Position numbers and translations under genes: made by a program | NCBI RefSeq assembly: GCF_010730955.1 | Contig: NZ_AP022577.1 | Location: 4,960,001-5,024,000 of the forward strand | Length of the DNA: 64,000 nucleotides | Direction: 5' to 3' | Origin: Mycolicibacterium aubagnense | Lineage (GTDB): Bacteria > Actinomycetota > Actinomycetes > Mycobacteriales > Mycobacteriaceae | Shown: piece by piece, positions 1-15,179 of the stretch | Layout of the letters: each line of letters begins with the position of its first letter | How positions within the stretch are numbered: the stretch's first letter is position 1 | The notes under the pieces: model-generated | Database searches by the model: none | What the model was told of the DNA's origin: nothing | What the model saw: only the letters and a program-made list of their open reading frames with translations

Positions 1-2
1 TG

Positions 3-959
3 ATCGTCGACACGGGCTCTGCCGGGCTGGTTGTGGATGCGAAGTACGTTCCGTCGGCGCTTCTACGAGCGAGTGAGGCAGATCCGAACCTCCAAGTGAG
101 CGGCTATTCATATGCCGGGAAGAACGGAAGTCAAATATATTACAGCGGCTACACGGTACCGACGACGGTCACTGTCGGAGGTGCGCCGACCGGGAATTCC
201 CAGTGGCCGGGGCAGGTTACCACCGGGAATACCGACGTAGTCGCTGCTACCAAGGTCTGGACGATGGCTCCTTCCCCAGGTTTATTGGGCGGTCTACAAT
301 ACTTCTTCTTTAATTTCATTCCATATATTTTCACTGGCTTTAACCCCGTTCACCTCAGGAATTACACGACCCTGTCCGCTCAATTCCCGGGCGCGGACGG
401 CATTATGGGTATCGGACCTAATGCAGTCGGGCCAGGTCCTATTGTGACGGCGGCGCTACCAGGTCATCTCGGCGCTGGTGAACTCATTGCAGTCGGCACG
501 ACCGCATCGTCCAACTACATCGCTTTCGGCACGTCGCAGGATTTTGGCCTCGGATCAGTCACCGGCGCGGAGTCTGCCCCAACTACACCGGTGGAGGTGG
601 CGGTCACGAAACCGGGCCGGGTTATTGGCTTTACACCGAATATCGAAGCGATTTTCGATTCGGGCGGCAATGTCGGAACGATTGCGTCGTCGCTTGTTCC
701 GGGGCTCAGTGTCGGTTCGCAGGTGCCCGCGGGTTACACCATCACGGTCTCCACTACTGGCGGTGCCCCCATCTACTCCTACACAACGGGCAGCAATGAC
801 GGACCAATAGTCGTTTCGGGCTCCGATTTCAATACTGGGATCATTCCGTTCGACTATGCCGACTACGGCGATCCTCAGGCGCCGTACCAATACCAGGGTC
901 TCTACATCGACAACTCCGGCAATGGCACACTGATAACCCCATCAAGGGTACAGGTCTAG
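3..959 (+). CDS. PecA-like mycobacterial aspartic protease domain (5' end missing)
   Basis: The reading frame enters from upstream of the window, so the start and any PE-type N-terminus are not visible. The first codons spell IVDTGSAGLVVD, with a candidate catalytic Asp at 9-11. A second motif, IFDSGGNVGTI, places another Asp at 657-659. Two D(T/S)G motifs about 216 residues apart are the signature of a pepsin-like aspartic protease. In mycobacteria this arrangement occurs in the C-terminal domain of PecA-type PE_PGRS proteins, which are surface proteases that process PE proteins and lipases. The residues between are rich in Gly, Ser, Thr and Asn, as in exported cell-wall proteins. No export signal can be seen because the N-terminus is outside. 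The gene ends at TAG 957-959. Confidence 0.75.
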   Translation: MVDTGSAGLVVDAKYVPSALLRASEADPNLQVSGYSYAGKNGSQIYYSGYTVPTTVTVGGAPTGNSQWPGQVTTGNTDVVAATKVWTMAPSPGLLGGLQYFFFNFIPYIFTGFNPVHLRNYTTLSAQFPGADGIMGIGPNAVGPGPIVTAALPGHLGAGELIAVGTTASSNYIAFGTSQDFGLGSVTGAESAPTTPVEVAVTKPGRVIGFTPNIEAIFDSGGNVGTIASSLVPGLSVGSQVPAGYTITVSTTGGAPIYSYTTGSNDGPIVVSGSDFNTGIIPFDYADYGDPQAPYQYQGLYIDNSGNGTLITPSRVQV

Positions 960-1109
960 CGCGGTTCGCCCCGCGACCACAAGCGAACTTTTGAGGCAGC
1001 CTCCGCGCCTACTCGCCGAGTGGCCATGCCCGTAGCGTTCGGGCCGCTGTCTATCACGGGTCTAGCCATCTGAGACAGTCGGCTCGCCTGCATCCTCCGC
1101 CTAAATAGG

Positions 1110-1165
1110 GTCTATTGCGAATTGATCGACAGTAGACTAAAATAGATCTTAGACCTTAAATAGAC
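1110..1165. other. Candidate resolvase binding site (res-like inverted repeats)
   Basis: This AT-rich segment directly upstream of the serine recombinase carries four copies of the pentamer TAGAC or its complement. GTCTA at 1110-1114 faces TAGAC at 1133-1137, so the pair spans exactly 28 bp. Further copies lie at 1150-1154 and 1161-1165. Small serine resolvases bind roughly 28-bp inverted sites with TGTC(T/C)-type half-sites next to their own gene. TAGACA at 1161 read on the other strand is TGTCTA. Role is inferred from position and repeat geometry. Confidence 0.45.
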
Positions 1166-1172
1166 ACCGGGG

Positions 1173-1763
1173 GTGCGAGTGGGCAAAGGGCAGACCGTCG
1201 GCTACGTGAGGGTCTCCACCGTCGACCAGAACACAGAAAGGCAACTCGACGGCCTGACCCTCGACAAGCGGTTCGAGGACAAAGCCTCCGGCAAGAACAC
1301 CAGCCGCCCGCAGTTGCAGGAATGCCTCCGGTTTGTCCGCGAGGGCGACACACTCGTCGTCCACTCGATGGACCGCCTCGCCCGATCGCTCGTCGACCTG
1401 CGGCAGATGGTGGATGACCTGACCGGTCGGGGCGTCGCGGTGCGGTTCGTCAAGGAGGGTCTGACGTTCACGCGTGACGACGCCGACCCGTGTTCGGTGC
1501 TTATGTTGTCGATCATGGGCGCCGTCGCCGAGTTTGAGCGGTCGATGATCCGCGAGCGGCAGCGGGAGGGCATCGCCGTCGCCAAGTCCAAGGGCGTCTA
1601 CAAGGGCCGCAAGCCGTCTCTCGGCGCCGATGAGGCTGCTGCTGTGGCTCGCCGACTGAGGAACGGCGAGTCCGCCTCTGCCTTGCGGGATGAATACGGC
1701 GTCAGCCGGGCGACGATCTACAACACGGCCAAGAAGTGGACGCCAGATGCTGCCCAAGCGTGA
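1173..1763 (+). CDS. Small serine recombinase (resolvase/invertase family)
   Basis: A 196-residue protein close to the usual size of Tn3/Hin-type resolvases. The N-terminal catalytic domain has the YVRVST motif with the nucleophilic Ser, followed by the typical RLARSLVDLRQMVDDL segment carrying active-site Arg residues and the EFERSMIRERQREGI long helix. The C-terminus (about residues 150-190, ESASALRDEYGVSRATIY) is a Hin-like helix-turn-helix. It should cut and rejoin DNA at paired sites, resolving cointegrates or inverting segments. The start could be GTG 1173 or GTG 1179. The second gives a better distance from the GGGGG at 1168-1172. The next small gene begins inside its 3' end, suggesting coupling. 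Confidence 0.85.
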   Translation: MRVGKGQTVGYVRVSTVDQNTERQLDGLTLDKRFEDKASGKNTSRPQLQECLRFVREGDTLVVHSMDRLARSLVDLRQMVDDLTGRGVAVRFVKEGLTFTRDDADPCSVLMLSIMGAVAEFERSMIRERQREGIAVAKSKGVYKGRKPSLGADEAAAVARRLRNGESASALRDEYGVSRATIYNTAKKWTPDAAQA

Positions 1764-1911
1764 CAAATCAGCGGCAGATGATGTGACCAACGAACCGCAG
1801 GACGCCGTGGACGTGGGTCCGTACGAGCAGTGGCTGCAAGACGCCTATGCCGACCACCAGCCCGGTGACGACAAGTGGCGACCGCCGGTTGATATGTACG
1901 ACGAGTGGTGA
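1747..1911 (+). CDS. Small acidic protein, 54 aa, related to the 2463 gene
   Basis: ATG 1747 lies 17 bp inside the recombinase gene in another frame, suggesting translational coupling. The product is acidic and has a PYEQWLQDAYA segment followed by QPGDDKWRPPVDMYDEW. This C-terminal part resembles the end of the protein at 2463-2699 (EEPGDEKFRSSIEKCDE). The DNA also matches over the CCCGGTGACGA-AAGT stretch, so the two are probably diverged duplicates. No signal peptide, membrane helix or known domain is seen. Function unknown. Confidence 0.55.
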   Translation: MLPKRDKSAADDVTNEPQDAVDVGPYEQWLQDAYADHQPGDDKWRPPVDMYDEW

Positions 1912-1963
1912 ACCCGCACGCGGTGATGCCCCAGGACGTCCACTGTGAACCGGCGGTGCTGAT

Positions 1964-2173
1964 ATGAGCAAAGAGAAGTACCGCGACATGGGGGGCAACG
2001 TCTACACCCGCGAAGAGCTGGAGCAGGAGATGCTCGACGACGCCACCGGTGTCCCCGCCGAGAACTTCGTCGGTGGCAAGTTCGACTTCGACGCATGGCT
2101 GGGCGAAGAACTGTCGATGGGCTCCATCATCTGCATCGAGGATGAGTCAATGCGCGCTGATGTGCCTTCATGA
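1964..2173 (+). CDS. Small acidic protein, 69 aa (tandem family)
   Basis: A 69-residue protein with 17 Asp/Glu and 6 Lys/Arg, so strongly acidic. Its central region (VYTREELEQEM ... PAENFVGGKFDFDAWLGEEL) aligns with the protein at 2463-2699 (VVTRSELQREI ... PAENWRLGEFNFNDWLLESL). The shared pattern is TR-EL--E, PAEN, G-F-F--WL-E-L. The two are clearly paralogues. The stop overlaps the next ATG (ATGA at 2170-2173). The strong negative charge would suit a DNA-mimic or a recombinase partner, but this is speculation. No known family is recognised. Confidence 0.65.
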   Translation: MSKEKYRDMGGNVYTREELEQEMLDDATGVPAENFVGGKFDFDAWLGEELSMGSIICIEDESMRADVPS

Positions 2174-2400
2174 GCGGCAGAGGCAAGTACATGCCCGATC
2201 CCGAGGGACCCTACGACTGTCTTGACGAGGATTACGTCTTGAGGCCAGAGGCTGAAGAAGAGATCACCGAGTGGAGCCGGTCAGCAGATCCAGGGTGGGA
2301 CTACTCGGAAGATCGGCCCCAGCTGACGGTGGTCGATGCCCCGGATGACGACGATGGAAGCTCCGATTTCATGTGCGCCCGATCGGGTCCGCGGCCCTGA
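2170..2400 (+). CDS. Small acidic protein, 76 aa
   Basis: The start ATG overlaps the preceding stop (ATGA), so it is probably translated with the upstream gene. About 21 of 76 residues are acidic, including a DDDD run near residue 60, against about 7 basic ones. It has no obvious hydrophobic core, signal peptide or known motif, and may be partly disordered. It lacks the PAEN/WL pattern of its neighbours but shares their size, charge and operon. Function unknown. Confidence 0.5.
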   Translation: MSGRGKYMPDPEGPYDCLDEDYVLRPEAEEEITEWSRSADPGWDYSEDRPQLTVVDAPDDDDGSSDFMCARSGPRP

Positions 2401-2462
2401 GGCTCATCGCCATCCACTCACGGCCACCTAGGCATTCACCAGCGAGAACACGAGGTAACGCC

Positions 2463-2699
2463 ATGAGCGATGAAGAGACGTTCCTGCGCGGTGACCAGGT
2501 GGTGACCCGCTCCGAGCTGCAGCGCGAGATCGAGGCAGAAGCCGCCGACGAGCCAGCCGAGAACTGGCGGCTCGGCGAATTCAACTTCAATGACTGGCTT
2601 CTCGAGAGCCTGCAGGTCGGCCTCCTCACACGCGTGGACGTCGATGAGGAGCCCGGTGACGAGAAGTTCCGCTCGTCGATTGAGAAGTGCGACGAGTGA
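2463..2699 (+). CDS. Small acidic protein, 78 aa (tandem family)
   Basis: Paralogue of the 1964-2173 protein over residues 10-55 (VVTRSELQREI, PAENWRLGEFNFNDWLLESLQVG). Its C-terminus resembles the 1747-1911 protein (PGDEKFRSSIEKCDE). It therefore appears to be the full-length member, of which the other two keep overlapping parts. A weak AGG-containing ribosome site precedes the ATG. No enzyme motif or membrane segment is visible. Function unknown; duplication in tandem behind a recombinase suggests an accessory or phage-type role. Confidence 0.6.
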   Translation: MSDEETFLRGDQVVTRSELQREIEAEAADEPAENWRLGEFNFNDWLLESLQVGLLTRVDVDEEPGDEKFRSSIEKCDE

Positions 2700-2860
2700 T
2701 GACTCCGCGTGTCGACCATCTGGACTTCTGCAGGACCAGCGGACCGGCCGCTGTCGCAGGCGACGAGGAAGTGCATGCGTGACTGTCACCGGCCATTTGG
2801 CTGACGTATTGGAGCGTGTTGACAGCGCCCGGTACTGCGGTCTTTCGATTACTTCGTCAA

Positions 2861-3991
2861 ATGGCGATCACGCAAGTCGAGAAACGTAAGTGGCTAGAAA
2901 TGCTGCGTGAAACCCGGTTCGTTCTCGACGCATTGCGCCATCAGACTTGTCAGGCCGTACGGCCGAATACCTTCACCCCTAGTACCCAGAAGTCGCTGTG
3001 GCAGGTGCCTCCCGGAAGGCTCGTGCGGAAGTTCGATTCTGAAACTGCGACTGAAACTGCGACTCTGGGCCCAGAGCTGGCATCTGCGTTGTCCAGCGCC
3101 GTCGACGAGGTCCGCAGCTTTCTCGACAGTCCTCAGCCGTGGACAACGATGCAAGTCGCTCAGGATCTAACGCGCGCAGTACCTGTGATCGACGCGTCGA
3201 TTGATGCCGTGGAGGGCGTAAAAGTGAACGACGAGAAGCCATCCGACGTGGTGGACGAACTCGAACGCGATTATTTGCTCTCACTCGCGGTGACGTTGAC
3301 CGGCCAAGGGACCATCACTCAAAAGTTGTTCGAGTGGGAGGGCGGAAACAAGGGCGATTATCTGGACATTGCGACATTCCGACTAGTTCGCGACGGTGGC
3401 CCTGGGCGGGTGCATATGCGAGATGTACATGAGGCCACCGACGCGGGCATGACGACCTTCCTTTTCGGGAAGGGGTTTTCCAGCTTCGACAAAGATCCGC
3501 AAGTTCAGCGGATGCTGTACAGCCAGTGGTTCACGTACATGTACGCGGTATGGGAGGAGCAATATCGACTGCGACTGGCGAACGCCCATGGTGCTGACGC
3601 CGACGGCGAGCCATGGACGCGTTTCGACATCAGCCACCAATTGTTCGGCGACATCCGCAACATCCGGAATGATGTCGTCCACAAGAACGGCGTCGTCGAT
3701 GCCAGCGCAGATAACAGTCTGCTCACCTGGTTCGGAGCAGGGAAACGGCTCGAAATTCAGGCCGAGCGAATGCTGTCGCTGGTGACGATGTTCCCACGCG
3801 AGGACCTGCTCGCAACACCAACGAGAGCGCAGCCGGGCAACCCGCAAAACCTTCCATGGCCCGTTGCCCCTGAACTTGTCGACGAGATCCGCCAACTTGC
3901 CGATCAAACAGGGTTGACCCGAAAACAGAAGAAGGACATCGGAAATGAAGCCCTCAGGCTGTGGATCGCTGCACGCAAACCAGTGACGTGA
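2861..3991 (+). CDS. Hypothetical protein with HEPN-type RxxxxH motif
   Basis: A 376-residue cytoplasmic protein with no signal peptide. The second half contains YSQWFTYMYAVWEEQYRLRLA followed by FGDIRNIRNDVVHKNG. The last piece holds an R-x4-H pattern at about residues 269-274, preceded by a hydrophobic helix. This is typical of HEPN domains, where the Arg and His act in RNA cleavage in many toxin and defence proteins. The N-terminal half (residues 1-150) shows no motif I recognise. A GTG at 2816 would extend it by 15 residues, but ATG 2861 is preferred because GGAG at 2811-2814 sits too close to the GTG. HEPN assignment rests on a short motif only. Confidence 0.6.
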   Translation: MAITQVEKRKWLEMLRETRFVLDALRHQTCQAVRPNTFTPSTQKSLWQVPPGRLVRKFDSETATETATLGPELASALSSAVDEVRSFLDSPQPWTTMQVAQDLTRAVPVIDASIDAVEGVKVNDEKPSDVVDELERDYLLSLAVTLTGQGTITQKLFEWEGGNKGDYLDIATFRLVRDGGPGRVHMRDVHEATDAGMTTFLFGKGFSSFDKDPQVQRMLYSQWFTYMYAVWEEQYRLRLANAHGADADGEPWTRFDISHQLFGDIRNIRNDVVHKNGVVDASADNSLLTWFGAGKRLEIQAERMLSLVTMFPREDLLATPTRAQPGNPQNLPWPVAPELVDEIRQLADQTGLTRKQKKDIGNEALRLWIAARKPVT

Positions 3992-4064
3992 CTGGCGTTA
4001 GCCGCGCCGACATCTTGCGTCTCGTCGGCTGACCCCAGCACGGAGCCGGGTGTCGAGTCGGCGA

Positions 4065-5021
4065 TTACTCGAATAGCTCTGTAGACCACGCGGCGATGGT
4101 GGGCTCGAACCGCTCAGGAAGGTGGGACCCGGCGGGGCGCGCCCCGCCGGGGGCTCGCGCCGCCGCCTCAAACATGCACACTGCGCATTCGACGATGTTC
4201 AAGGTGACGGCGAGGGCGTCGGCGATCAAGGTGAAAATGGTGCCGCCCCGGGTGTAGTCCGTCATCCATTTGTAGCCGTGGATGAAGCTGGAGCCGTACG
4301 AGTAGAGGGACCGCGCCGGGTTCTCCAAGCCGTGGTCGGCGATCTCGCCGTTGTCGTGGGCCGGGACGTGGGCATCGACCCATTGCGCGGATTCCCGGAT
4401 CATCTTGGTGAACGACGGCGGCTTGGCGAAGGTGTACGCCGTCTTCGCTTCGGCGAGCATCCCGCCGAACTTGCGCCGATGCTCGGCGTTCATTGTCAGG
4501 AGCTGCGCTGGGTACCGGGTCGGGTTGCCGTCCTCGTCCTCCTTGCCGATCAACAGGAACCGACTCTGCTGCTCCAGCTGCTCCATTTCCTCTGACATGC
4601 ACCGGTCTCGCCGGACCTCGCGTGACGGGTCTCTGAGCAGCCAGATGGTCAGGGCAGCGCATTCCATTGCCACCCGGCACAGTTGCAGCACCTCGGCGAC
4701 GTGCGGCTGCCGGTGCGACTTGCGGCGGGCCACTAATACCCCGACGGTGTTTATGCTCTCGACGGCGCTCATCGCCGGAAACAGGGCGTGCTCGGTGACT
4801 GCCTGCGGTCCGGCCAAAGTCAGAGGGTATGCCTGCATGAAGGCCGCGTCGTCGTCGGCAAGTGGGCTCAGCGGTTCGGCAGTGTGTGGGTTCAGCGCCC
4901 ACCGGTACAGGTCACCGCAACGCTGGCCGCGTTCGTCGATGCGACTAAGGACGCCGTTGTGCTTGAAGTTGAATAAGGCCTCGGCTTGCTCGGCAGTCAA
5001 ACCCATATTCGGGATGTTCAT
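4065..5021 (-). CDS. Conserved-type hypothetical protein, 318 aa
   Basis: Starts at ATG 5021 and runs convergently toward the 2861-3991 gene. It is mostly helical, soluble and rich in Ala and Glu, with a segment SLYSYGSSFIHGYKWMTDY near residue 245 that includes a conserved-looking S--xHG element, and a following hydrophobic helix (LIADALAVTLNIVECAVCMF). S-HG segments of this type occur in several uncharacterised families. The C-terminus (APGGARPAG) is encoded by a perfect GC-rich palindrome at 4128-4151. Function unknown. Confidence 0.6.
   Translation of the reverse strand: MNIPNMGLTAEQAEALFNFKHNGVLSRIDERGQRCGDLYRWALNPHTAEPLSPLADDDAAFMQAYPLTLAGPQAVTEHALFPAMSAVESINTVGVLVARRKSHRQPHVAEVLQLCRVAMECAALTIWLLRDPSREVRRDRCMSEEMEQLEQQSRFLLIGKEDEDGNPTRYPAQLLTMNAEHRRKFGGMLAEAKTAYTFAKPPSFTKMIRESAQWVDAHVPAHDNGEIADHGLENPARSLYSYGSSFIHGYKWMTDYTRGGTIFTLIADALAVTLNIVECAVCMFEAAARAPGGARPAGSHLPERFEPTIAAWSTELFE
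4128..4151. repeat. Perfect 24-bp GC-only palindrome inside a coding region
   Basis: The 24 bases are all G or C and read identically on both strands, centred on GCGC at 4138-4141. They lie near the 3' end of the 318-aa hypothetical gene and encode a short Pro-Gly-Ala-Arg tail. A hairpin here could act as a terminator or be a small inserted repeat. Confidence 0.8.
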
Positions 5022-5386
5022 AGCGCCACGCTAAACAGCGGCTACGACAATTCGGGTAGTCGTGGTCAGATCGGCCGGGAGATTGATCAAGGTCTGGAGG
5101 CTGTCGGGTTTGGGTACATGATTCCAGCCCTTTGATCTGGGCGAGTTCGTCGTGGTCATCGGCCGTCAGGTAGGTCGTCTGGTTGATTTCCGGCGTGCAC
5201 TGGGCCGCGGGACTGCGTCATTGATGAGCAGACGGATGGACGTGGTGAGCTGGTCATCGGCGTCGGTTATGTAACCAGCTAACGCGAAGAATTTGGCGAC
5301 GCTACCGCCACGCGGGTGGCCATATGATGAATAGCGGCTGAGCGCACGCGGCGGGGGCCGCGTGCAGGATTTTGGTTGGGGGAGAA
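5022..5386. other. Intergenic region upstream of the WXG100 operon
   Basis: About 365 bp between the divergent 318-aa gene and the WXG100 gene. I see no credible coding sequence or RNA gene. The last part contains a strong purine-rich ribosome site (GGGGGAGAA) directly before ATG 5387. The rest presumably holds divergent promoters, but no clear -10/-35 pair could be assigned. Confidence 0.5.
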
Positions 5387-5686
5387 ATGGCTGATCATCT
5401 GAAGGTCGACCCGATTGATCTGCACATGTCGTCAGCACATATGGATATGCACCACGCTGAACTGCGAACGGCGCACGCGGATGCTCATGCGGATATGGAA
5501 GCTGCGCAGGGAAGCTGGATAGGTGCTTCAGCAGCGGCGCTGCAGGCGAAGTTGGCTGAGTGGCAGGCGACCACCGAGCAGCTGTGCGGTGACATTTCTG
5601 CACATGGTGAGGCATTCAGCGCCGCGGCCCACAAGTACACCAGCACTGACGCGAACGGCGCGCAGGCGATCAACAAACAGGTCTGA
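5387..5686 (+). CDS. WXG100 family type VII secretion protein
   Basis: A 99-residue, helix-turn-helix type protein with the WxG turn motif at about residues 44-46 (GSWIGAS), as expected for ESX/type VII substrates. Such proteins usually pair with a partner and are exported as folded dimers. The N-terminus is His- and Met-rich (LHMSSAHMDMHHAEL), which is unusual. It is translated just before, and overlaps by one base (TGATG), the DUF1023-type gene. From memory the three-gene set matches M. tuberculosis Rv2798c-Rv2797c-lppV. No ESX core genes are nearby, so it would depend on a secretion system elsewhere. A strong GGGGGAGAA ribosome site fixes the start. Confidence 0.85.
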   Translation: MADHLKVDPIDLHMSSAHMDMHHAELRTAHADAHADMEAAQGSWIGASAAALQAKLAEWQATTEQLCGDISAHGEAFSAAAHKYTSTDANGAQAINKQV

Positions 5687-7353
5687 TGGCGGTCACTCTG
5701 GCCGACATCGAACGCTGGGACCCGTCGGCAGTCCGGGAAGTCTCGGATGCGTTGGGCAAGCGTGGTGCCAGTTCGGATGAGGTGAAGGCCGGACTGTCGA
5801 AGCTGCCGCTGATCGCCAGCTGGCAGGGGACTGGTGCAGATGCCGCCCGTGCCTCGTTGGACAAGTTGAGTTCCCACTTGGCCGCTCACGCCGAGGAGAT
5901 GGCAGCGGTATCAGCTGCGACCAAGAAGTCCGCCGATGAGATCGACTCGGTCCGCCAGACCCTGCAGGGCATTTACCGCGATGCCAAGGCGGAACGATTC
6001 GACATCAACCCAGCGACGGGAGCGGTTACTTCGCTCGATAAGGACAACTCCGGCGACCCGATGCGTTTCCTGCAGAAAGTGGACTTGGAAACCCGGATCA
6101 GCAAGGTGCTCGCCGACGCCAACACCGCCGACGCCGACCTCGCCCGCGCCATCACAGCGGCGGGTAAAGAGTCGACCGGGCCGACGGAAACTCGGCCAGA
6201 TGTGCGGGCCGCGTTGTCGAAGCCACTGCCGGAGGACCCCAAACAGTTCAATGAGCTGTGGAACAAGCTCACGCCAGAGGAGAAGGACTGGCTGTACGCC
6301 CAGGACCACAACGTCGGTAACCATCCGGGCATGCCGTTCGACCCCGCCGATCATCTGGGCAAGGACCACTACAACCGGATGCACCTGGACGAGTTGATGA
6401 AGAACTCGCAGGCCAATGTCGACGATCTGCAGCGCCGGTTCGATGCCTTGGCCGCGAAGCAGTACATGGGCGACCACAGCAGTGAGACGGGGAATGCTCT
6501 TGCGGCGCTTGGCCCTCAGCTGCAGGCCGCCAAGTCTCAGCTCGATGGATACAAGGCGGTAAATGGAGCGCTGAACCCACCCAAGGGTGGTGCCAACAGT
6601 GGCATTCCTCGATTCCTGGGGCTGCTCGACGATCAGGGGCACGCTGCCGTGTCATTGCAGAACCCCGACCTGGCCAAACGGGACGCCACGTTCGTACCCG
6701 GCACTGGCCAGAACATCAACGCCTTCGAGGGAAGCAACGAGAAGTCGATCCGCATGTATCAGGCGGCCCTGGCCGCCGACAAGAGCCTGATGCCCGGCGA
6801 CGTGTCCGTGACGACCTGGATGGGCTACGACCGCCCAATGAACCTGCCCGAAGCCTCGTTTACTGATCCCGCCACATCAGGTGCGGGCAATCTGGATGCT
6901 TTCCAGGCGGGGTTGCGAGCCTCTCACGTCGGAGACCCGTCCATCAATACCGTCATCGGCCACAGCTACGGATCGACGTTGGTCGGTGCCGCCGCCAGCG
7001 GCGGGCACCACCTCGATGCGAACAACATCATCGCGGTAGGCAGCCCCGGCATGCTCGTCAACCACGCCGGAGACCTCAACCTCGATCCGGGTGGGCACGT
7101 CTACGCAACCAAGGCCCTCAACGACGTCATCTCACTGGCCACCGACACGACCTTGGGGCCCGACCCGATCGGCCAGTCGTTCGGTGCCACCGACCTGATG
7201 GCAGCCCCAGGCCCCAGCCTGGACCCGTACAGCCTCCTGCCCACCGTCGAAGCCCACAGCTCCTACTGGAGCCCCGGCAATGTGGCGTTGAGAAACATGG
7301 GTGCGGTGATAGCCGGTCAGCCGCCCCCTGTGATCGGATACCCAAGTGGATAG
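5686..7353 (+). CDS. DUF1023-type alpha/beta hydrolase, probable type VII effector
   Basis: A 555-residue protein in two parts. Residues 1-110 form a helical WXG100-like module with a WxG at about 46-48 (ASWQGTG). Residues 340-555 carry an alpha/beta-hydrolase (DUF1023) domain with the nucleophile elbow GHSYGS, Ser at about 427. The N-terminal module probably pairs with the upstream WXG100 protein for export, while the C-terminal domain would hydrolyse an ester or peptide-like substrate outside the cytoplasm. The substrate is unknown. It is tightly coupled to both neighbours. Homology to Rv2797c is from memory. Confidence 0.8.
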   Translation: MAVTLADIERWDPSAVREVSDALGKRGASSDEVKAGLSKLPLIASWQGTGADAARASLDKLSSHLAAHAEEMAAVSAATKKSADEIDSVRQTLQGIYRDAKAERFDINPATGAVTSLDKDNSGDPMRFLQKVDLETRISKVLADANTADADLARAITAAGKESTGPTETRPDVRAALSKPLPEDPKQFNELWNKLTPEEKDWLYAQDHNVGNHPGMPFDPADHLGKDHYNRMHLDELMKNSQANVDDLQRRFDALAAKQYMGDHSSETGNALAALGPQLQAAKSQLDGYKAVNGALNPPKGGANSGIPRFLGLLDDQGHAAVSLQNPDLAKRDATFVPGTGQNINAFEGSNEKSIRMYQAALAADKSLMPGDVSVTTWMGYDRPMNLPEASFTDPATSGAGNLDAFQAGLRASHVGDPSINTVIGHSYGSTLVGAAASGGHHLDANNIIAVGSPGMLVNHAGDLNLDPGGHVYATKALNDVISLATDTTLGPDPIGQSFGATDLMAAPGPSLDPYSLLPTVEAHSSYWSPGNVALRNMGAVIAGQPPPVIGYPSG

Positions 7354-7363
7354 GCGACAGAAG

Positions 7364-8002
7364 ATGAAATGCACCTCAGGCCTGCGGACTGTCGCCGCGT
7401 CGCTGGTTGGTGTCGCCGCTGTCGGTGCGCTGGTGGCGTGTGGACAACACAGCGATCTGGGCCCGAGCGTGCCTACCGGGGCCACACAGATCGGAGGAAG
7501 CCCAATGACATCGGCACCCCCACCGCCTGCCGGTTGGAACCCACACACCATCACGCCGACCAGCCAGCAGCAGGCTCAAGACACCGTCGTGGGTTACCTG
7601 AAGAAGACGCTCACAGCCTTGCCGCCGGGCACCATCCTGGACGCCACCCGCTACGGCGGTGCCGGGAGCAACGCGCCCTGCCAGGACAACCCCACGGGGC
7701 CGGGCAAGCCGCCGACAGAGTTCTCGACCATCGGCGATCTGAAACTGCCCGCTGGCACCAACCCCAACGACGCCATCGCTCAGATCGGGGACATCTGGAA
7801 GAGTTGGGGCTGGCACGTCATCGAGCGCGACGGCTTTCAGAAACCCAACCGCTTCGGCTACGCCCCAGATGGCTACAGCTTGCAGATCGAGGCGGCTAAC
7901 CCACCGGGTTCGCCGCCAACGGTCAACGGCACCACCCCGTGCTATTCCGGCGACCTCCAGCGTGATGACCTACCCGTCCCGAAAATCTTGCAGGCGCAGT
8001 AA
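7364..8002 (+). CDS. LppV-like lipoprotein
   Basis: Begins MKCTSGLRTVAASL and has a lipobox LVAC with the acylated Cys at about residue 26, so it should be anchored to the outer face of the membrane. The mature region is Pro- and Gly-rich, then forms a compact domain of about 150 residues (DTVVGYLKKTLTALPPG, WGWHVIERDG) with two Cys that could form a disulphide (PCQDNP and PCYSG). It follows the effector by a few bases. GTG 7346 would add six residues. As the third gene of the trio it may assist or restrain the hydrolase. Equivalent in position to lppV; function unknown. Confidence 0.75.
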   Translation: MKCTSGLRTVAASLVGVAAVGALVACGQHSDLGPSVPTGATQIGGSPMTSAPPPPAGWNPHTITPTSQQQAQDTVVGYLKKTLTALPPGTILDATRYGGAGSNAPCQDNPTGPGKPPTEFSTIGDLKLPAGTNPNDAIAQIGDIWKSWGWHVIERDGFQKPNRFGYAPDGYSLQIEAANPPGSPPTVNGTTPCYSGDLQRDDLPVPKILQAQ

Positions 8003-8040
8003 CTACGGGTGCGACGACTGCTCGGCCCCCGGGAAGCCGG

Positions 8041-8388
8041 TTGCGGGTGATCAGAGGGTCGGAAGTTCGCCACAATGCCATAATCGAACGTGTCTTCGAA
8101 ACATGGGAAAACATCAACGGGTATCCGACGTTGTACCCCTGCGACCGTCCTGTCTTCGTCGACACCAGCTGGCTGCCCCACTCGGGCACCCGCCGCGACA
8201 AGCTGGCCATGTGGATCAAGTCAGGTGGGCTTCAGGTTGACTACGGGATGCCCGGACGCCAGCTGGCATGGATCAGACGGTCGGGCGGCTCTTGGATTGC
8301 GGTTGTCGAACTGACAGCCCGCAGCGGCAACGTGCGGTCCTCGTTGACGGCGACGCTGTGGCTTCCGCCAGGCGCGATCAGAGCGTAG
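8041..8388 (+). CDS. Hypothetical protein, about 115 aa
   Basis: The codon use is like genuine mycobacterial genes and the frame lies just after the lipoprotein. The product has no signal peptide or membrane helix. It includes Trp-containing strands (SGGSWIAVVELTARSGNV, SLTATLWLPPGAI) suggesting a small beta-rich fold. The start is uncertain: TTG 8041 or GTG 8047, neither with a convincing ribosome site. It may be co-transcribed with the WXG100 operon or belong with the following gene. No family recognised. Confidence 0.45.
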   Translation: MRVIRGSEVRHNAIIERVFETWENINGYPTLYPCDRPVFVDTSWLPHSGTRRDKLAMWIKSGGLQVDYGMPGRQLAWIRRSGGSWIAVVELTARSGNVRSSLTATLWLPPGAIRA

Positions 8389-8458
8389 TGATGCACGGCG
8401 TTCCCGGCGACCGTGTACCGCGTAGCTTCTCGTTCCCCGGCCGGGCAGGATACGGACG

Positions 8459-9409
8459 ATGACGACAGTGAAAGCTGCGTTCGAGTTGGCGCGCGTCGAT
8501 TCTGTGCGGCACATGGCCGCGTGCGAGCAGGCATCCCTCCGATGGGGCGAGGTGGGGATCACCGAAATTGTGACTTCTCGCGCCGCCCCGGCTGTGACGG
8601 TAGCGCCGTTTAGCCAGCCCGCTGAATTCATCAGCGGTGCCGACTGGATTTGGTGGTGGGTCGACGCGACTGCTGCCTACGGGATGCTCGTGCAGGCGAA
8701 GCGCGTGGCGGTTAGTGGGGGGCGGTGGCACTTTGACTTTGCCTACCCGAGGGGGAGTGACAGGCAGCGGAGGCAACTTATCTCCACGGCAGAGACACTA
8801 GGCTTGTTTCCGGCATACGCGCTCTACCTCGGAACGGGAAACTATCGGAGGTGGGAGCGGTGTTCAGATAGTCATCAAGCCGAGGGCTGCCTAGAGTGCA
8901 CTCGGCGATCGCTCTCGGTGATGCCTGCTTTGTTGGCCCGGGAACCGTTGGTAATCGACTCGAAGACCACGTACGAATGGTCGATCGCCCTCGAAAATCT
9001 GTGGACACCGGAATCTGCTCGATTCGTGCCAATTCACCCGCTGACGGGGATTGCGCCAGGCCTTGTGGACTTTCTGACCATGCCGCAGCGCGGGGTGCGC
9101 GCGATATCTCGGGCGATGATCGATCGCGTTCTTCAGGCGCGCCTGGGCCAGTTCAACGCGATGCCGAATGCTGTGAGCGGAATACTGGGGGGTAGCCATG
9201 ATCGGCTGGGGTCAGTTTTCTCGGAATTTCCCGACGACCACTGGGGCACTCCGTATTTCGAGCAAGTGCTTAACCCATTGCGGCACACGCCGCCGTCCTA
9301 CGTGCTCGAACTTGTGTCATCAGAAAGGGTCGATACGGACGCCGTGACAGCCGCCATGCCAGAGACCATAGCGGGGGTTGTCGTTGTGCAGTTGTCTCCC
9401 AACAGCTAG
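8459..9409 (+). CDS. Hypothetical protein with nuclease-like E...D...QAK motif
   Basis: A 316-residue soluble protein. The N-terminal third has a pattern like a restriction-endonuclease fold: Glu36 (GITEIV), then GADWIWWW with Asp62, then LVQAKRV with Gln79 and Lys81, followed by SDRQRRQLISTAETLG. D-(x)n-(E/Q)-x-K spacing of this kind is found in PD-(D/E)XK nucleases. It may belong to the uncharacterised DUF6615 group, but that is from memory and weak. A CxxxxxxxxCLECTRRS segment at about residues 138-150 could bind metal. The neighbourhood is accessory. Catalysis is inferred only from motif spacing. Confidence 0.6.
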   Translation: MTTVKAAFELARVDSVRHMAACEQASLRWGEVGITEIVTSRAAPAVTVAPFSQPAEFISGADWIWWWVDATAAYGMLVQAKRVAVSGGRWHFDFAYPRGSDRQRRQLISTAETLGLFPAYALYLGTGNYRRWERCSDSHQAEGCLECTRRSLSVMPALLAREPLVIDSKTTYEWSIALENLWTPESARFVPIHPLTGIAPGLVDFLTMPQRGVRAISRAMIDRVLQARLGQFNAMPNAVSGILGGSHDRLGSVFSEFPDDHWGTPYFEQVLNPLRHTPPSYVLELVSSERVDTDAVTAAMPETIAGVVVVQLSPNS

Positions 9410-9747
9410 CGCGACGACACCTCTGTTCCGCCGATCCGGCAGGGAATGTTAGAGCCTCGTCTATGCGAGGGCCTTTGAGAATCGTGGGTCCTACTCTGGA
9501 CGCGGCCGACTATGAAGCCTGGGGTGGCAGGTAGTCCCCGCATGGCCCGCCGACAGCCCCCGGCGGCAGTAGCGCCTTCCGTCGGTTTCACACGTCGATC
9601 AACGTCGAGTGTCAATGGCTGGTGAAGACCGCTGCTGGAGCAACCCAACTACCTCAGCCATAAGGCGGAATGCTGAAAGCGTCGGGTACAGAACGCGGCT
9701 CAGGTCGCTTGTCAGACGTAGGTTTACGACCGTGGGGTCTGTGCTTT
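9410..9747. other. Non-coding interval before the IS3 element
   Basis: About 340 bp without a convincing gene on either strand. A short hairpin (CCTCG/CGAGG around 9456-9471, followed by CTTT) could terminate the upstream gene. Nothing else is recognisable. Confidence 0.4.
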
Positions 9748-9817
9748 GGGTCTGCTGCACGAATAGGTGACATCTGAGTTGGCTTGCCCAGCATGGGCGG
9801 GCTGGAAGGATGTCCCC

Positions 9818-10126
9818 ATGGCAAGGCCCTACCCCCGCGAGTTCCGCGACGACGTCGTCCGGGTCGCTCGCAACCGCGATGACGGTGTAACGATCGAGCA
9901 GATCGCCACCGATTTCGGAGTGCACCCGATGACGCTGCAGAAATGGCTCCGTCAGGCCGACATCGACGAAGGCACCAAGCCCGGCAAGAGCGCCAGCGAG
10001 TCCGGTGAGCTGCGCGAAGCCCGACGGCGGATCAAACTGCTAGAGCAAGAGAACGAGGTGCTGCGTCGGGCCGCAGCGTATTTATCGCAGGCCAATCTGC
10101 CGGGAAAAGGGTCTACCCGCTCGTGA
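9818..10126 (+). CDS. IS3-family transposase OrfA
   Basis: A 102-residue protein with an N-terminal helix-turn-helix (DGVTIEQIATDFGVHPMTLQKWL) and a C-terminal leucine-zipper-like coiled coil (LREARRRIKLLEQENEVLRRAAAYL), as in IS3 OrfA proteins that recognise the IS ends. A GGAAGG ribosome site precedes ATG 9818. The AAAAG run at about 10104-10108 near the end is where a -1 ribosomal slip would join it to OrfB. The frame upstream of the GTG of orfB reads KRVYPLVKELAADGIPVAV, as in typical OrfAB fusions. Confidence 0.9.
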   Translation: MARPYPREFRDDVVRVARNRDDGVTIEQIATDFGVHPMTLQKWLRQADIDEGTKPGKSASESGELREARRRIKLLEQENEVLRRAAAYLSQANLPGKGSTRS

Positions 10127-10979
10127 AAGAGCTCGCCGCCGACGGGATCCCCGTCGCGGTGACGTGCCGGGTACTCAAGCTCTCCCGCCAACCGTATTAC
10201 CGCTGGCTGGCCGACCCCATCACCGAGGCCGAACTCATCGAGGCCTACCGCGCCAATGCGCTGTTCGACGCGCACGCAGACGATCCGGAGTTCGGCTACC
10301 GCTACCTCGTGGAGGAGGCGCGCGATGCCGGCGAGCCGATGGCCGAGCGCACCGCATGGCGGATCTGCTCGCAGAATCGACTGTGGAGCGTGTTTGGTAA
10401 GAAACGCGGCAAGAACGGCAAAGTCGGGCCGCCGGTGCACGACGATCTTGTCGAGCGTGACTTCACCGCTGAAGGGCCAAATCAGTTGTGGCTCAGTGAC
10501 ATCACTGAGCACCGCACCGGTGAGGGCAAGCTCTACCTCTGTGCGATTAAGGACGTGTTCTCCAACCGGATCGTCGGCTACAGCATCGACTCCCGAATGA
10601 AGTCACAACTGGCCATCCGGGCACTACACAGCGCGGTAGCCCGACGCGGAGATGTCGCGGGGTGCATTCTGCACTCGGATCGCGGATCTCAGTTCCGGTC
10701 AAGGAAATTCGTACACGCCTTGAATCAACACGAGATGGTCGGCTCTATGGGCCGTGTCGGAGCCGCCGGCGACAACGCCGCCATGGAGAGCTTCTTTAGC
10801 CTGCTGCAGAAGAACGTGCTCGACCGCCGCCGCTGGGACACCGAGAACAACTCCGTATCGCGATCGTCACCTGGATCGAGCGCACCTACCACCGGCGCCG
10901 CCGCCAGTCCGGCCTCGGGCGGTTGACCCCGATCGAATTCGAAGCAATCATGACCACACCGGCCAGTCAGGCCGCGTGA
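10123..10979 (+). pseudogene. IS3-family transposase OrfB, frameshifted
   Basis: Integrase-core transposase with DDE elements visible: NQLWLSDIT (first Asp), LHSDRGSQF (second Asp) and NAAMESFFSLLQKNVL (Glu). The frame is lost at about 10841 where one base appears to be missing in GACACCGAG (expected one more C). Restoring it recovers the usual ending, with LRIAIVTWIERTYHRRRRQ and GLGRLTPIEFE, to the TGA at 10977-10979. As read, the protein ends abnormally at 10926 after losing the C-terminal part. Either the copy is dead or this is a sequencing error. Confidence 0.85.
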
Positions 10980-11262
10980 CCGAAACTGTCACCTGATCGT
11001 GCAGCAGACCCCTTCGTCAACGCTCACCCGACGATCATCTAACTCGACACCGACAGGAGGAGGCACCTCGTAAGGGAGTGTCCGACAGCCCGCCCTAAAG
11101 CAATTGCCGGTGGCTTGCCGCGGCACCTAACAACAGCGAGCGGTCTCACGGTCATCCGCGCGCAAACAGAGTTGTCACCCCAATGCGGCACCATCGAGTC
11201 AGGCCGGGCGATTCGTGGAGTCGCAGTCAGCAGGAATGGATTCAACTAGGGGAGGGATTGCT

Positions 11263-11835
11263 ATGACGCAGGATGCATTGGGGGCGGTCGGTGCGCGACT
11301 CGGAAAGATCGATTTGGAGGCGCTGACAGACGATCAGGCCATCGCGCTCGCACAGGCTCAAGCTGCGCTGATCAAGCCGAATCCTGATCCCGCTGAAGAA
11401 GTTTCGGAAACGCGATCGATCGGCGACGTTGTTGGCGGCTGGTTCCGGGAAGAGTCCTTCTACCGAGACGTCACCACCAGAACGCTGTCGGCAATACTGG
11501 CGGCCCTGCTCGCTTACCTGGGAGCTGTGGCGCTCGGCTATGTGGGCACACCGTCTCCAGTGGCTGTTTTTGAGCTCGGCTACGCCGTCGCAACGGCTAT
11601 CTGTGTGGCGTCCACGGGATACGCCAAGGCAACTGGGCGGGAGTTGCTGGCGGGGACACTCTTCGTGCTCTATTGCGTGGTCGCTGCTGCGGTGTTTTGG
11701 TACGGACCAACGTGGGGTGGCGACCTCGGTTGGAAGGACAAGTGGAGCTGGATCGCGTTGGTGCTGCAGGTCGCTTTGATGATCGGCGCGTTTGGATTTG
11801 TGCGGAACCGCCGCAAAGCGCGTGCAACGCGATGA
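11263..11835 (+). CDS. Small multi-pass membrane protein, 190 aa
   Basis: Starts at ATG 11263 behind an AGGGGAGG ribosome site. The N-terminal 70 residues are soluble and acidic (LTDDQAIALAQAQAAL). Four hydrophobic segments follow: TLSAILAALLAYLGAVALGY, VFELGYAVATAICVAS, ELLAGTLFVLYCVVAAAVFW and WIALVLQVALMIGAFGF. A basic tail (RNRRKARATR) ends the protein. The stop overlaps the next start (ATGA), so the two form an operon. No known family. Confidence 0.6.
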   Translation: MTQDALGAVGARLGKIDLEALTDDQAIALAQAQAALIKPNPDPAEEVSETRSIGDVVGGWFREESFYRDVTTRTLSAILAALLAYLGAVALGYVGTPSPVAVFELGYAVATAICVASTGYAKATGRELLAGTLFVLYCVVAAAVFWYGPTWGGDLGWKDKWSWIALVLQVALMIGAFGFVRNRRKARATR

Positions 11836-12560
11836 CGGTGATTGATCCACCGCCGCCAGTGATCCTTGACCGCCCAGGGACGGTCCGGTGGGCGGCGGGT
11901 GACCCCGAGGGGCCGCGGTCGAGCACCTGGCGCGTCGAGGGAGTTAGCAACAAGCGGGGACGAGATGACTTCTATGTGGGTACCCGTCAGACCATGAAAG
12001 CGGTCAAAGTGAGCCTCCATGACGCTGACCGAGAGCGGGGGTGTCCACCTGCAACGGTCTGTGCGTTCACCAAGGAGTTCTCCGTCGCCAATGGGCTCTC
12101 AGAGCGCTGGAGGCTGAATCTGGGTCAGACGACAGAGGTAGCGCCTGGGTGGCGGCACGAACTCACCGTCGCGACTCCAACTACCACCTTCGGCGTGTTC
12201 GACGAAACACCGCCGCTCAAGAGAGCCGAGACAATCCAGTGGTGGGTTACGCCGCCACACCCCTGGCAACTTTGCTTCCATTTCTACGTCGGCGAACCCG
12301 GTTGCTGTCCAGTGTCACTCGACTTCCATGTGGGGGAGGTTTGTCGGATGCCGCTTGCGAATGGCCGTTGCCTGTGGATTGTTGCGCAGTGCGAACGGAT
12401 GGCGGACACCGTTGGCGAGGCAATCCGGGAACGTGTCGCGCGGCTTCCTGTGGAGGCAAATCACGTGTACCCCTTCACGCTGTTGAAGACTGAGGGGCGT
12501 GTGCCGGTTTTGCTCGACCTTGCAGTGACGAACCGGCCTCGGCGACCGTCGATCGCGTGA
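11832..12560 (+). CDS. Hypothetical protein, 242 aa, coupled to a membrane protein
   Basis: ATG 11832 overlaps the stop of the membrane protein. The product is soluble and Trp/Pro-rich, with a Cys-containing central region (HPWQLCFHFYVGEPGCCPVSL) and a C-terminal helical part (MADTVGEAIRERVARLPVE). I recognise no domain. The coupling suggests it works with the upstream four-helix membrane protein. It sits between the two IS elements in the accessory region. Confidence 0.55.
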   Translation: MTVIDPPPPVILDRPGTVRWAAGDPEGPRSSTWRVEGVSNKRGRDDFYVGTRQTMKAVKVSLHDADRERGCPPATVCAFTKEFSVANGLSERWRLNLGQTTEVAPGWRHELTVATPTTTFGVFDETPPLKRAETIQWWVTPPHPWQLCFHFYVGEPGCCPVSLDFHVGEVCRMPLANGRCLWIVAQCERMADTVGEAIRERVARLPVEANHVYPFTLLKTEGRVPVLLDLAVTNRPRRPSIA

Positions 12561-12578
12561 GATCGATTCATCGTTTGG

Positions 12579-12627
12579 TCACCTCTGTTGACGGTTTCAT
12601 TGATTTTCAACACCTTGTGCGGAACCG
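12579..12627. repeat. Imperfect 50-bp direct repeat, copy 1
   Basis: Matches 14971-15020 at about 38 of 50 positions with one gap. Both copies begin TCACC, share TTGACGGTTT and TCAAC, and end AACCG. The two copies enclose the IS256 remnant and one hypothetical gene. The second copy also forms an inverted repeat (GACGGTTTT/AAAACCGTC). Origin unknown; could be old element ends or duplicated regulatory DNA. Confidence 0.55.
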
Positions 12628-12645
12628 CGAGGTTGCGTCCATCAA

Positions 12646-14042
12646 GGTGGTGTACGAGTCGGACCTGATCAGCGGTACCGGCGTGTCGTAGCCGAGTGAT
12701 TGAAGGTCATCGCGTGATTCTTCGAGAGACCGTCCAAAGTCACTCGAGCAAAGGAATCGACGCGATGACCACTGCCCACAATATCGATCTGCCCACTGTG
12801 CTGGCCGAACGACTCACCACTGCCCATCCCGACGTGCTGCGCGAGCTGCTGGCCACGTTCATCCACACCCTGATGGGCGCCGAAGCCGACGCCCTATGCG
12901 GTGCCGGCTACGGCGAACGCTCGGCTGAGCGCACCAATTCCCGCAACGGCTACCGACACCGTCAATTCGACACCCGTGCAGGGACTTTGGATCTTGCGAT
13001 CCCGAAGCTGCGGCAAGGATCCTACTTCCCGGACTGGCTGCTGGAGCGCCGTAAACGCGCCGAGCGGGCCCTGACCACGGTGGTGGCGACGTGTTACCTG
13101 CTTGGTGTCTCGACGCGGCGGATGGACAAGCTGGTCGAGACCCTGGGCATCACGTCGTTGTCGAAGTCGCAGGTGTCGGTGATGGCCAGGAACTCGACGC
13201 CGCCGTGGAGGCGTTCCGGACCCGGCCGCTCGATGCCGGCCCGTATACGTTCGTCGCTGCGGACGCTCTGGTGCTCAAGGTGCGTGAAGCCGGCCGGGTG
13301 GTCAACGTGCACGCCCTGATCGCCGTCGGGGTCAACGCCGAGGGCTACCGCGAGATCCTGGGAATCGATGTCACGACCGCTGAGGACGGGGCGGGCTGGT
13401 TGACGTTCTGGCGGTCGTTGACCGCCCGCGGCCTGTCCGGGGTCAAACTGGTCACCAGCGACGCCCACGCCGGGCTGGTCGCCGCCATCGGGGCCACCCT
13501 GCCCGGAGCGGCGTGGCAGCGCTGCAGAACCCACTACACGACCAACCTGATGTCCGTCACTCCCAGAGTTCGTGGCCCTGGGTGCGCACCCTGCTGCACT
13601 CGGTGTTCGACCAACCTGACGCTGAATCCGTTGCTGCTCAATATGATCGGATCATCGACGCATTGTCCGACAAGCTGCCCAATGTCGCCGATCACCTCGA
13701 AGCGGCGCGGCCGGATCTGCTGGCGTTCACCGCGTTCCCCAAGCAGATCTGGCGCCAGATCTGGAGCAACAATCCCCAGGAACGACTCAACAAGGAGATC
13801 CGCCGGCGCACCGACGTCGTGGGCATCTTCCCCGACCGCGCGGCCCTGATCCGTCTCGTCGGAGCAGTGCTGGCCGAACAACACGACGAATGGGCCGAGT
13901 CGCGGCGCTACCTCGGCCTCGACGTTCTGAGCAAATCACGCACCGTCAACGACACCCCAACCGAACAGGAGGCTACCCCCGCGGCACTGCCCGCCTGACC
14001 CAACTACCTCGAAGAATCACACGACGACGTCATACACCACGT
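12646..14042 (+). mobile_element. IS256-family (mutator type) insertion sequence, decayed
   Basis: About 1.4 kb with a transposase flanked by inverted repeats. The outer ends read GTGGTGTACGA at 12647 and its near-complement at about 14030-14041. An inner perfect 13-bp pair, GTGATTCTTCGAG at 12714-12726 and its complement at 14008-14020, lies further in. No matching 8-bp target duplication is evident. The transposase has two frameshifts, so the element is unlikely to move by itself. Confidence 0.8.
12765..13998 (+). pseudogene. IS256-family transposase with two frameshifts
   Basis: The protein can be rebuilt from three frames. MTTAHNIDLPTVLAERL to LSKSQVSVMA runs to about 13188. DAAVEAFRTRPLDAGPYTFV to HYTTNLMSVTP runs to about 13562. 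SSWPWVRTLLHSVFDQPDA runs to the stop at 13998. The mutator transposase pattern is visible: Asp in VAADALVLKV, Asp in LVTSDAHAG, the WQRCRTHYTTN segment and the Glu region near NNPQERLNKEIRRRTDVVGIFP. At each break a single A seems missing from a Lys codon: GCC-AAG reads GCCAG, and CCC-AAG reads CCCAG. Inactive as read. Confidence 0.9.
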
Positions 14043-14157
14043 CCCTGGACTTGACCAACCGCGAGTGGCTCTGTTCGGGCTGGTACAGCTTGCACCGCTT
14101 CACCTCGACGAAATTGATGTGCAGTCCGTCGAACAGAGCAGCAACGTCCGCCACCGT

Positions 14158-14919
14158 TCATTTCGGGCCGAGGGTTATTGCTGCACGCTTTCCGTCCAGC
14201 AGCGCGCCCAAAGCCGCAGGTGGCTCGCTTGTGTGTGTTTGTGGCCAGATAGCGCCGTCGCATGCTCGGACGGCTGACGCGAGGTCGTCCAACATCTGCT
14301 GGAGCCGAAGCGAGGTCAGTGGAACGTCCGTGGGGTCGAAAGGTCCTCCGCGCGTTGGTCCGGTTTCCGTCATGAACTGCTCACGGAGTTCCTTTGTGCG
14401 CAATTCACCGCGTTGGTGGGCTAGCAGATGTCTCAGTTCGCGGATGTACGTGACGTTATCGGTTTCGAGATTGCTGCCCAAGGCCTCGTGTATACGGCAC
14501 AGCGTTCCCCAGGAGGGAGAGTTCTGACCTTTTCTAACGACCGGAGTCAACCGGCGGACGGAGCCATCGACGTCGTCGACGCCGCGCCATCGTCCTAAGG
14601 CCTCGCCGGCGCTCTTCTCGGCATACACTTCGAACGCCGTGACCGCATCACGTAGTGCCCCTGTTCTGAGCATCCAAAAGTAGTCCTCCTCCCAGAGGTA
14701 GCCCACTCTGCTCAGGAAGTCGTAGAAATACTCGTTGGGCTCGTCGTTGTCGGGATCGAAGCGCCTCTCGAATTCGTTCCTGGCATCGTCCAAGGATTGG
14801 GCGTAGGCGACCGAGGCCCATTTCTCAGAAAGCTGTATGTAAGAACGGATGTCGGCGTCTATGGCCTTCCAATCATTGAACGCGCGGCTTCTCTGCTCAT
14901 CGTGGTGGATCCAAGGCAC
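14158..14919 (-). CDS. Hypothetical protein with HEPN-type RxxxxH motif
   Basis: A 253-residue acidic, helical protein starting at GTG 14919. The segment NVTYIRELRHLLAHQRGEL has Arg163-x4-His168, the spacing of HEPN ribonuclease motifs, within a predicted helix. Before it, FLSRVGYLWEEDYFWMLRTGALRDAVTAFEVYAE resembles helices of the other HEPN-like protein at 2861-3991 (both contain WEE-Y). No toxin-antitoxin partner is seen directly adjacent, since the IS256 remnant is on one side and the tRNA scar on the other. Assignment is motif-based. Confidence 0.6.
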   Translation of the reverse strand: MPWIHHDEQRSRAFNDWKAIDADIRSYIQLSEKWASVAYAQSLDDARNEFERRFDPDNDEPNEYFYDFLSRVGYLWEEDYFWMLRTGALRDAVTAFEVYAEKSAGEALGRWRGVDDVDGSVRRLTPVVRKGQNSPSWGTLCRIHEALGSNLETDNVTYIRELRHLLAHQRGELRTKELREQFMTETGPTRGGPFDPTDVPLTSLRLQQMLDDLASAVRACDGAIWPQTHTSEPPAALGALLDGKRAAITLGPK

Positions 14920-14970
14920 GGACGTGACTTTATGTGCCGAATTGGCGCGGACGGTGGATCCATCGCTTAT

Positions 14971-15020
14971 TCACCGGTATTGACGGTTTTCATTCATTGT
15001 CAACGCTTTGCACAAAACCG
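14971..15020. repeat. Imperfect 50-bp direct repeat, copy 2
   Basis: Second copy of the repeat at 12579-12627. It contains an internal inverted repeat, GACGGTTTT at 14982-14990 and AAAACCGTC at 15014-15022, that could form a hairpin or bind a dimeric protein. It lies 70 bp before the tRNA-Lys-like fragment. Confidence 0.55.
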
Positions 15021-15090
15021 TCGGTGGGTGTGTTTTCGCAGGTAGATGGTGATCTATCGAAACCTGTTAGGTAGCGCTAAGTAGTGTCGA

Positions 15091-15132
15091 CTACTTATCA
15101 GCGGGTCCGGGGTTCGAAACCCTGACGGCGCA
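15091..15132 (+). tRNA. tRNA-Lys-like 3' fragment (integration scar, not a full tRNA)
   Basis: TCAGC (15098-15102) matches a 3' anticodon stem. It is followed by GGGTC, a T arm CGGGG-TTCGAAA-CCCTG and an acceptor strand ACGGCGC with discriminator A at 15132. The whole closely resembles the 3' half of mycobacterial tRNA-Lys. The matching 5' acceptor (GCGCCGT) and a D arm are absent upstream, so it cannot fold as a complete tRNA. Position 60 of the T loop is A instead of a pyrimidine. A fragment like this is what remains at one end of an element that integrated into a tRNA gene. Confidence 0.65.
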
Positions 15133-15138
15133 CAGATA

Positions 15139-15174: not shown

Positions 15175-15179
15175 TTCAG

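Follow-up and report, generated by a model that had tools for sequence, protein, structure and literature searches.

A resolvase with a res-like site, small acidic genes and a HEPN-type gene as probably independent parts of a mycobacterial integrative island

Background

Proteins of the HEPN superfamily are described in PMC3710099 as having an R-x4-6-H motif, a polar residue after the arginine, and an upstream Ex3[KR] motif. The res site of Tn3 is composed of three sites with a 22-bp linker between sites I and II (PMC9943657). On the integrative island SGI1, a Tn3-like resolvase acting with res removes multimers (PMC12217951). Genes reminiscent of these systems are found side by side in the window analysed here, which is the whole 64,000-nucleotide stretch C1:4960001-5024000 of the source genome, Mycolicibacterium aubagnense. 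A gene for a small serine recombinase is followed by four small acidic open reading frames (ORFs, named below by their start positions) and by a gene for a HEPN-type protein of 376 amino acids. A sequence-only reading had proposed that these genes constitute a self-contained mobile module. No description of a recombinase-acidic-HEPN arrangement was found in open-licence literature titles or abstract openings.

Distribution of the three gene types

The explanation that we favour, with a probability of roughly 0.7, is that the island on which these genes lie is a patchwork of independent parts, namely a multimer-resolution module, phage-like acidic genes and a stand-alone HEPN toxin or defence gene. 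This is suggested by the distribution of the genes in other genomes. There are 34 HEPN loci, of which 30 are distinct when the window is included (L033/L091 and L034/L095 lie on the same contigs, and L088-L090 are near-identical). In addition, 13 acidic loci were fetched from 12 genomes; G197 and G227, which are among the 15 genomes that carry the acidic family, were left out. The stretches compared range from 7.6 to 21 kb, with 14 kb for the window, and all counts of co-occurrence cover these spans. None of the 29 other distinct HEPN loci includes an acidic gene, such that the window alone has one, and none of the 13 acidic loci includes a HEPN gene. Serine recombinases of this type, broadly defined, are present in six of the 13 acidic loci and in three of the 29 other HEPN loci.

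A recombinase recurs near acidic genes but is rarely near HEPN genes, and acidic and HEPN genes are not found together in any of the other loci compared. The refuting condition set in the sequence-only reading therefore speaks against a self-contained module, and this tempting but unsupported call is corrected here. Its mobility is a separate matter, since all of the genes do lie on a mobile island, but the recombinase has the look of a resolvase acting at its res site more than of an enzyme that mobilises the cassette. What emerges instead is a resolvase that carries a res-like site, an acidic family tied to integrase and primase elements and seen in no genus but Mycobacterium, and a HEPN family that moves alone.

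The recombinase and its res-like site

The recombinase ORF spans window positions 1173-1763 on the plus strand, and GTG 1179 is favoured as the start because the equivalent codon is used in relatives, which yields a protein of 194 amino acids (1179-1763). The only families to pass the Pfam cut-off are Resolvase (PF00239, 6.7e-39) and HTH_7 (PF02796, 1.4e-7), and the protein, at about 194 amino acids, lacks a large-serine-integrase domain. The small serine recombinase of the sequence-only reading is borne out by these matches, and a Tn3-type resolvase with its own res-like site is the best reading of it.

Upstream DNA was compared for the window and 12 relatives; L026 was omitted from the 13 loci fetched, and the 12 include L075, which is one of the acidic loci. 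A non-coding stretch of about 130 bp located 5' of the recombinase gene is conserved in 10 of the 13 upstream sequences (the window and nine of the 12 relatives). In the window, this stretch (1048-1166) consists of three inverted repeats that follow the pattern TGTCYA...TRGACA, to none of which a strand is assigned. Site I, the predicted crossover site, occupies 30 bp (1048-1077) and fits TGTCYA-N18-TRGACA with one mismatch; it is exactly 30 bp long and in register in eight of the ten aligned upstream sequences. Site II (1098-1131, 34 bp) and site III (1133-1166, about 34 bp) are placed in the window by alignment alone. By pattern, each is in register in seven of the ten, with a length of 34 bp for site II and of 31-34 bp for site III. 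Both site I and site II are found by pattern in five of these sequences, and the linker between the two is 20 bp in four of them and 31 bp in L027. The number of pattern matches in a single sequence is reached by 10 of 100 shuffles for the window, 15 of 100 for L040 and 31 of 100 for L075. Because such counts do not always exceed those of shuffles, the case for res rests on the in-register conservation. The conserved stretch is absent upstream of the recombinase genes in L022, L023 and L028, which are phage-like by reading, and it is present in L025 although the neighbours there read like those of these three loci.

In common with Tn3 and gamma-delta, the window protein joins a Resolvase domain to a helix-turn-helix, and three subsites with an I-II linker of about 20 bp lie 5' of the gene. 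Sites I and III of Tn3 are about 28 and 25 bp, whereas here they are 30 and 31-34 bp, and the gene resides within an integrative island. In this last respect the locus resembles SGI1, in that both are integrative islands with a Tn3-like resolvase and res, but the islands and their hosts are unrelated. No Tn3 transposase was recognised nearby by reading, and no profile search was aimed at one. The possibility that the recombinase is an invertase or the integrase of the cassette was considered, and is ruled against by its size, its domains and the res-like site. A scan of window positions 900-4200 returned one promoter-like sequence, compared to a shuffled mean of 0.6, and two terminator-like sequences, compared to 2.4, so that neither count stands out from the shuffles.

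Judging from this architecture, the resolvase would bind the three subsites just 5' of the gene that encodes it. In multimers of the element, it would recombine two copies at site I to yield monomers. Autorepression is also probable, because the res sites overlie the presumed promoter of the resolvase gene.

Small acidic ORFs and their family

The four small ORFs, all on the plus strand, are 1747 (1747-1911, 54 amino acids), 1964 (1964-2173, 69 amino acids), 2170 (2170-2400, 76 amino acids) and 2463 (2463-2699, 78 amino acids). Their acidic excess is real, as had been claimed, with acidic and basic residues numbering 14 and 5 in 1747 (counted on 53 amino acids), 17 and 6 in 1964, 21 and 7 in 2170, and 23 and 8 in 2463. 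They had also been described as coupled by overlaps, which holds for two of the five junctions (17 nucleotides between the recombinase gene and 1747, and 4 nucleotides between 1964 and 2170) but not for the other three, where there are gaps of 52, 62 and 161 nucleotides.

Segments were said to be shared by three of these ORFs, and 2000 shuffles per pair allow this to be refined. For 1964 aligned with 2463, the score is 105 and the shuffled mean is 26; for 1747 aligned with 2463, the score is 53, mostly from the tail, and the mean is 24. Neither score is reached by any shuffle. The paralogy of 1964 and 2463, as judged from their sequences, is real, and the tail that is common to 1747 and 2463 corresponds to a 59-nucleotide direct repeat with 78% identity. 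By contrast, the likeness of 1747 to 1964 is not significant (reached by 16% of shuffles), and 2170 is unrelated to each of the other three (72-97% of shuffles). The tail of 2463 was probably gained locally, since its close relative in M. llatzerense (P0086, 60 amino acids) is 92% identical over the shared part and has no tail.

Profile searches locate the acidic family in 15 of 396 Mycobacterium genomes, including the source genome, and in one of 40 genera among 198 relatives. There are 95 members in a large protein set, with 1964 from the window counted, and the family alignment comprises 2463 together with 63 of these. The phage family phrog_3378, which has no assigned function, is matched by 36 of the 64 aligned members at E<=0.001. 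ORF 1964 matches it at E 1.1e-4 over profile positions 6-52 of 54, while 2463 has no match; the profile is almost wholly covered in the four members that match among eight scanned singly. A search with phrog_3378 of 98 genomes of the genus gave one match (G024, an acidic locus already in the set) and left the source genome unmatched. No phage record was found by tblastn with three members of the family, no member was confirmed in viral contigs, and no close relative of 2463 was confirmed among genome contigs. A profile search of solved structures returned nothing credible.

The acidic family is often located in integrative elements, and the earlier claim of a genuine family is upheld in this form. 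A Pfam-confirmed tyrosine integrase is present in six of the 13 acidic loci (L071, L073, L075, L076, L077 and L083) and L082 has one by reading; Prim-Pol was confirmed in both primase proteins tested (L077 and L082). The surroundings of L072 and L074 read as ordinary chromosome, and the longer proteins of L078 and L080 appear by reading to hold a second copy of the acidic domain. In the favoured explanation, these phrog_3378-like genes, seen here only in Mycobacterium and duplicated in the island, travel with elements that carry integrase, excisionase and primase genes and probably serve them, perhaps by binding a DNA-handling protein of the element or of the host. A second small gene family, with the motif AELGxxPAxxDxxxIxRHR, was noticed by reading directly 3' of the acidic gene in two loci (L071:7477-7713 and L074:7281-7595), and it has a copy in the source island (L038:5120-5314).

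The HEPN-type protein

The 376-amino-acid protein is encoded by window positions 2861-3991 on the plus strand. Its R-x4-H motif, already pointed out in the sequence-only reading, is R269-N-D-V-V-H274, in which R269 and H274 are the same in every sequence of two alignments, one of 39 and one of 54 sequences. N270 is likewise invariant, as is R236 within an upstream W-[ED]-E-x-[YF]-R236 segment. The 39 sequences derive from 43 proteins, including that of the window, from which P0036, P0037, P0042 and P0043 were omitted as short or apparently frame-broken. A helical bundle (residues 1-124) precedes the HEPN region (about 127-319), and the C-terminal tail (about 330-376) is tentatively described as ribbon-helix-helix-like. 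The RHH_1 profile matches two of 10 HEPN tails at E 0.014 and 0.043, both below the curated cut-off, and leaves the window's tail unmatched.

Pfam recognises no family in the 39 relatives apart from three chance-like families in one member each. The window protein has no NCBIfam or PADLOC match, and PADLOC found no family among seven window proteins. Matches in a profile search of solved structures are confined to the N-terminal part and are mostly designed helical proteins. Because four-helix bundles aligned with residues 1-124 took up the results of a structure search with the whole model, a separate C-terminal model was made. A Las1-complex chain, HepT and Csm6 are among the best matches of this model; their Z values are low, and unrelated chains tie with them. 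These matches, the invariant R-x4-H, the asparagine after the arginine and the upstream [ED]-x3-R together make this very probably a HEPN protein. It resembles the HEPN RNases Las1, HepT and Csm6 in its R-x4-H, its polar residue after the arginine and its upstream E/D-x3-R (PMC3710099). It differs in that a four-helix bundle makes up its N-terminus and a short tail its C-terminus, in that Pfam finds no CARF domain, and in that we could see no conserved partner gene. An adjacent nucleotidyltransferase antitoxin domain, as in HEPN-MNT toxin-antitoxin systems, is absent from the scanned window ORFs.

The gene is scattered and solitary. It occurs in Mycobacterium, Nocardia, Rhodococcus, Gordonia and Williamsia, where its locations include plasmids, islands and chromosomes. 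Four of eight plasmid matches were fetched, namely H1, H3, H4 and H8, while H2 (a near-duplicate of H1) and H5-H7 were left out. In three of the four loci fetched, the HEPN gene is flanked by genes on the opposite strand. No palindrome is shared by 19 stretches upstream of HEPN genes that could represent a common operator. Because this family moves alone and is not covered by the libraries scanned here, single-gene defence in mycobacteria and their relatives is a role for which it is an obvious candidate.

The protein is likely a metal-independent RNase that its N-terminal bundle or its tail would hold silent. Some trigger might release it and cause growth arrest or abortive infection, which could serve in defence and be of benefit. 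A more specific proposal is a one-gene toxin or defence system, wherein the N-terminal bundle is the sensor or clamp of the HEPN RNase and the ribbon-helix-helix tail is a built-in, antitoxin-like operator-binding domain. This would explain the solitude of the gene, the lack of a conserved partner and the scattered occurrence, but we regard it as doubtful. If the protein does prove to be a self-contained RNase, its silencing in the absence of an antitoxin gene would be a concrete matter to explain.

A second HEPN paralogue with about 30% identity lies 12 kb upstream in the island (L038:8262-9383; C1:4948261-4949382). There is a recombinase fragment 0.3-0.5 kb from it, and a tRNA-Thr(cgt) is located just 5' of it (L038:9498-9572; C1:4949497-4949571).

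The tRNA-Lys island

The cassette region lies within a decayed, tRNA-Lys-bounded integrative island of about 38 kb in a chromosome of Mycobacterium (in the GTDB sense). The island starts at a tRNA-Lys (C1:4936970-4937043) that is 23 kb before the window, and its right-hand part takes up window positions 1-15176. The 3' half of the tRNA-Lys and its terminator are directly repeated with 77 of 91 positions identical and a 36-nucleotide perfect core. The displaced copy at window positions 15089-15176 (C1:4975089-4975176; no strand is assigned to it or to the island) is presumed to be the right-hand attachment-site repeat. Six relatives were compared for the spacing between tRNA-Lys and tRNA-His, which is about 1.5 kb in two and 4 to 13 kb in three; in the sixth, no tRNA-Lys was found within the stretch fetched for this comparison. 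This spot seems to take up inserts repeatedly, and the short spacing in relatives agrees with the placement of the island. The island (C1:4936900-4975200) seems to be inverted together with its tRNA in the source genome, because the tRNA-Lys is on the other strand in all five relatives that have one.

Directly after the tRNA-Lys there are two adjoining pieces of a tyrosine integrase in different frames (L134:17148-18175; C1:4937147-4938174), the second of which is below the Pfam cut-off. This suggests a broken integrase, and hence that the island has probably lost the ability to excise itself. The interior of about 38 kb holds genes that read as replication-like, insertion sequence (IS) copies, two HEPN paralogues and the cassette. 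Pfam gave no family for the one replication-like piece that was scanned (L038:3-614). Two IS copies (window 12631-14056 and L038:11948-13371) are 99.7% identical over 1427 aligned bp. For loci that lack annotation, genes were called with a home-made program rather than a published one.

Alternative explanations

In a true module, the HEPN RNase would have the acidic proteins as its antitoxins or as its baits for sensing phage, and the recombinase would spread the whole set. The genes do share one strand, tight spacing and two overlaps, and an acidic composition is typical of inhibitors. However, the lack of co-occurrence of acidic and HEPN genes in all other loci compared, for which the acidic proteins were rejected as HEPN antitoxins, and the resolvase-type site of the recombinase make this very improbable. 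Moreover, M. llatzerense has close relatives of both 1964 (P0045) and 2463 (P0086). The contig given for each is 70,037 bases long, so that they presumably lie together, and no contig of this length is given for any of the 42 HEPN proteins other than that of the window. Perhaps the recombinase and the acidic genes form a functional pair that controls resolution or excision, wherein only the HEPN gene is a passenger. This would fit the broad-class recombinases in nearly half of the acidic loci, in elements with integrase and, where tested, prim-pol, and also the overlap of ORF 1747 with the end of the resolvase gene. In L075, the recombinase is a close relative that shares the res-like upstream region. 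Yet recombinase and acidic gene are about 4-11 kb apart in such loci with other genes between them, and the fetched stretches of 12 other close-recombinase loci (L022-L031, L039 and L040) have no acidic gene, so we consider a functional pair unlikely.

The integrase in two frames, the IS copies and partial gene copies could instead indicate that everything here is eroding debris, with integrase, acidic genes and HEPN gene all functionless remnants. This also appears improbable, given that the HEPN ORF is open and keeps every invariant residue, and that the acidic ORFs retain the family motif, with close relatives of 1964 and 2463 found elsewhere. We therefore retain the patchwork of independent parts as the preferred explanation.

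Neighbouring genes

Converging on the HEPN gene is a minus-strand gene (window 4065-5021) for a protein weakly like DUF5677 (E 4e-4, below the cut-off). Window positions 5372-7353 hold a WXG100/EspC-like gene and, after it, an Abhydrolase_8 gene with a weakly WXG100-like N-terminus. A partial copy of the latter, 86% identical over 138 bp, is located at C1:4951627-4951764. At the left end of the window, an ORF (33-959) encodes a PE-PGRS C-terminal aspartyl-protease-like (PecA) domain.

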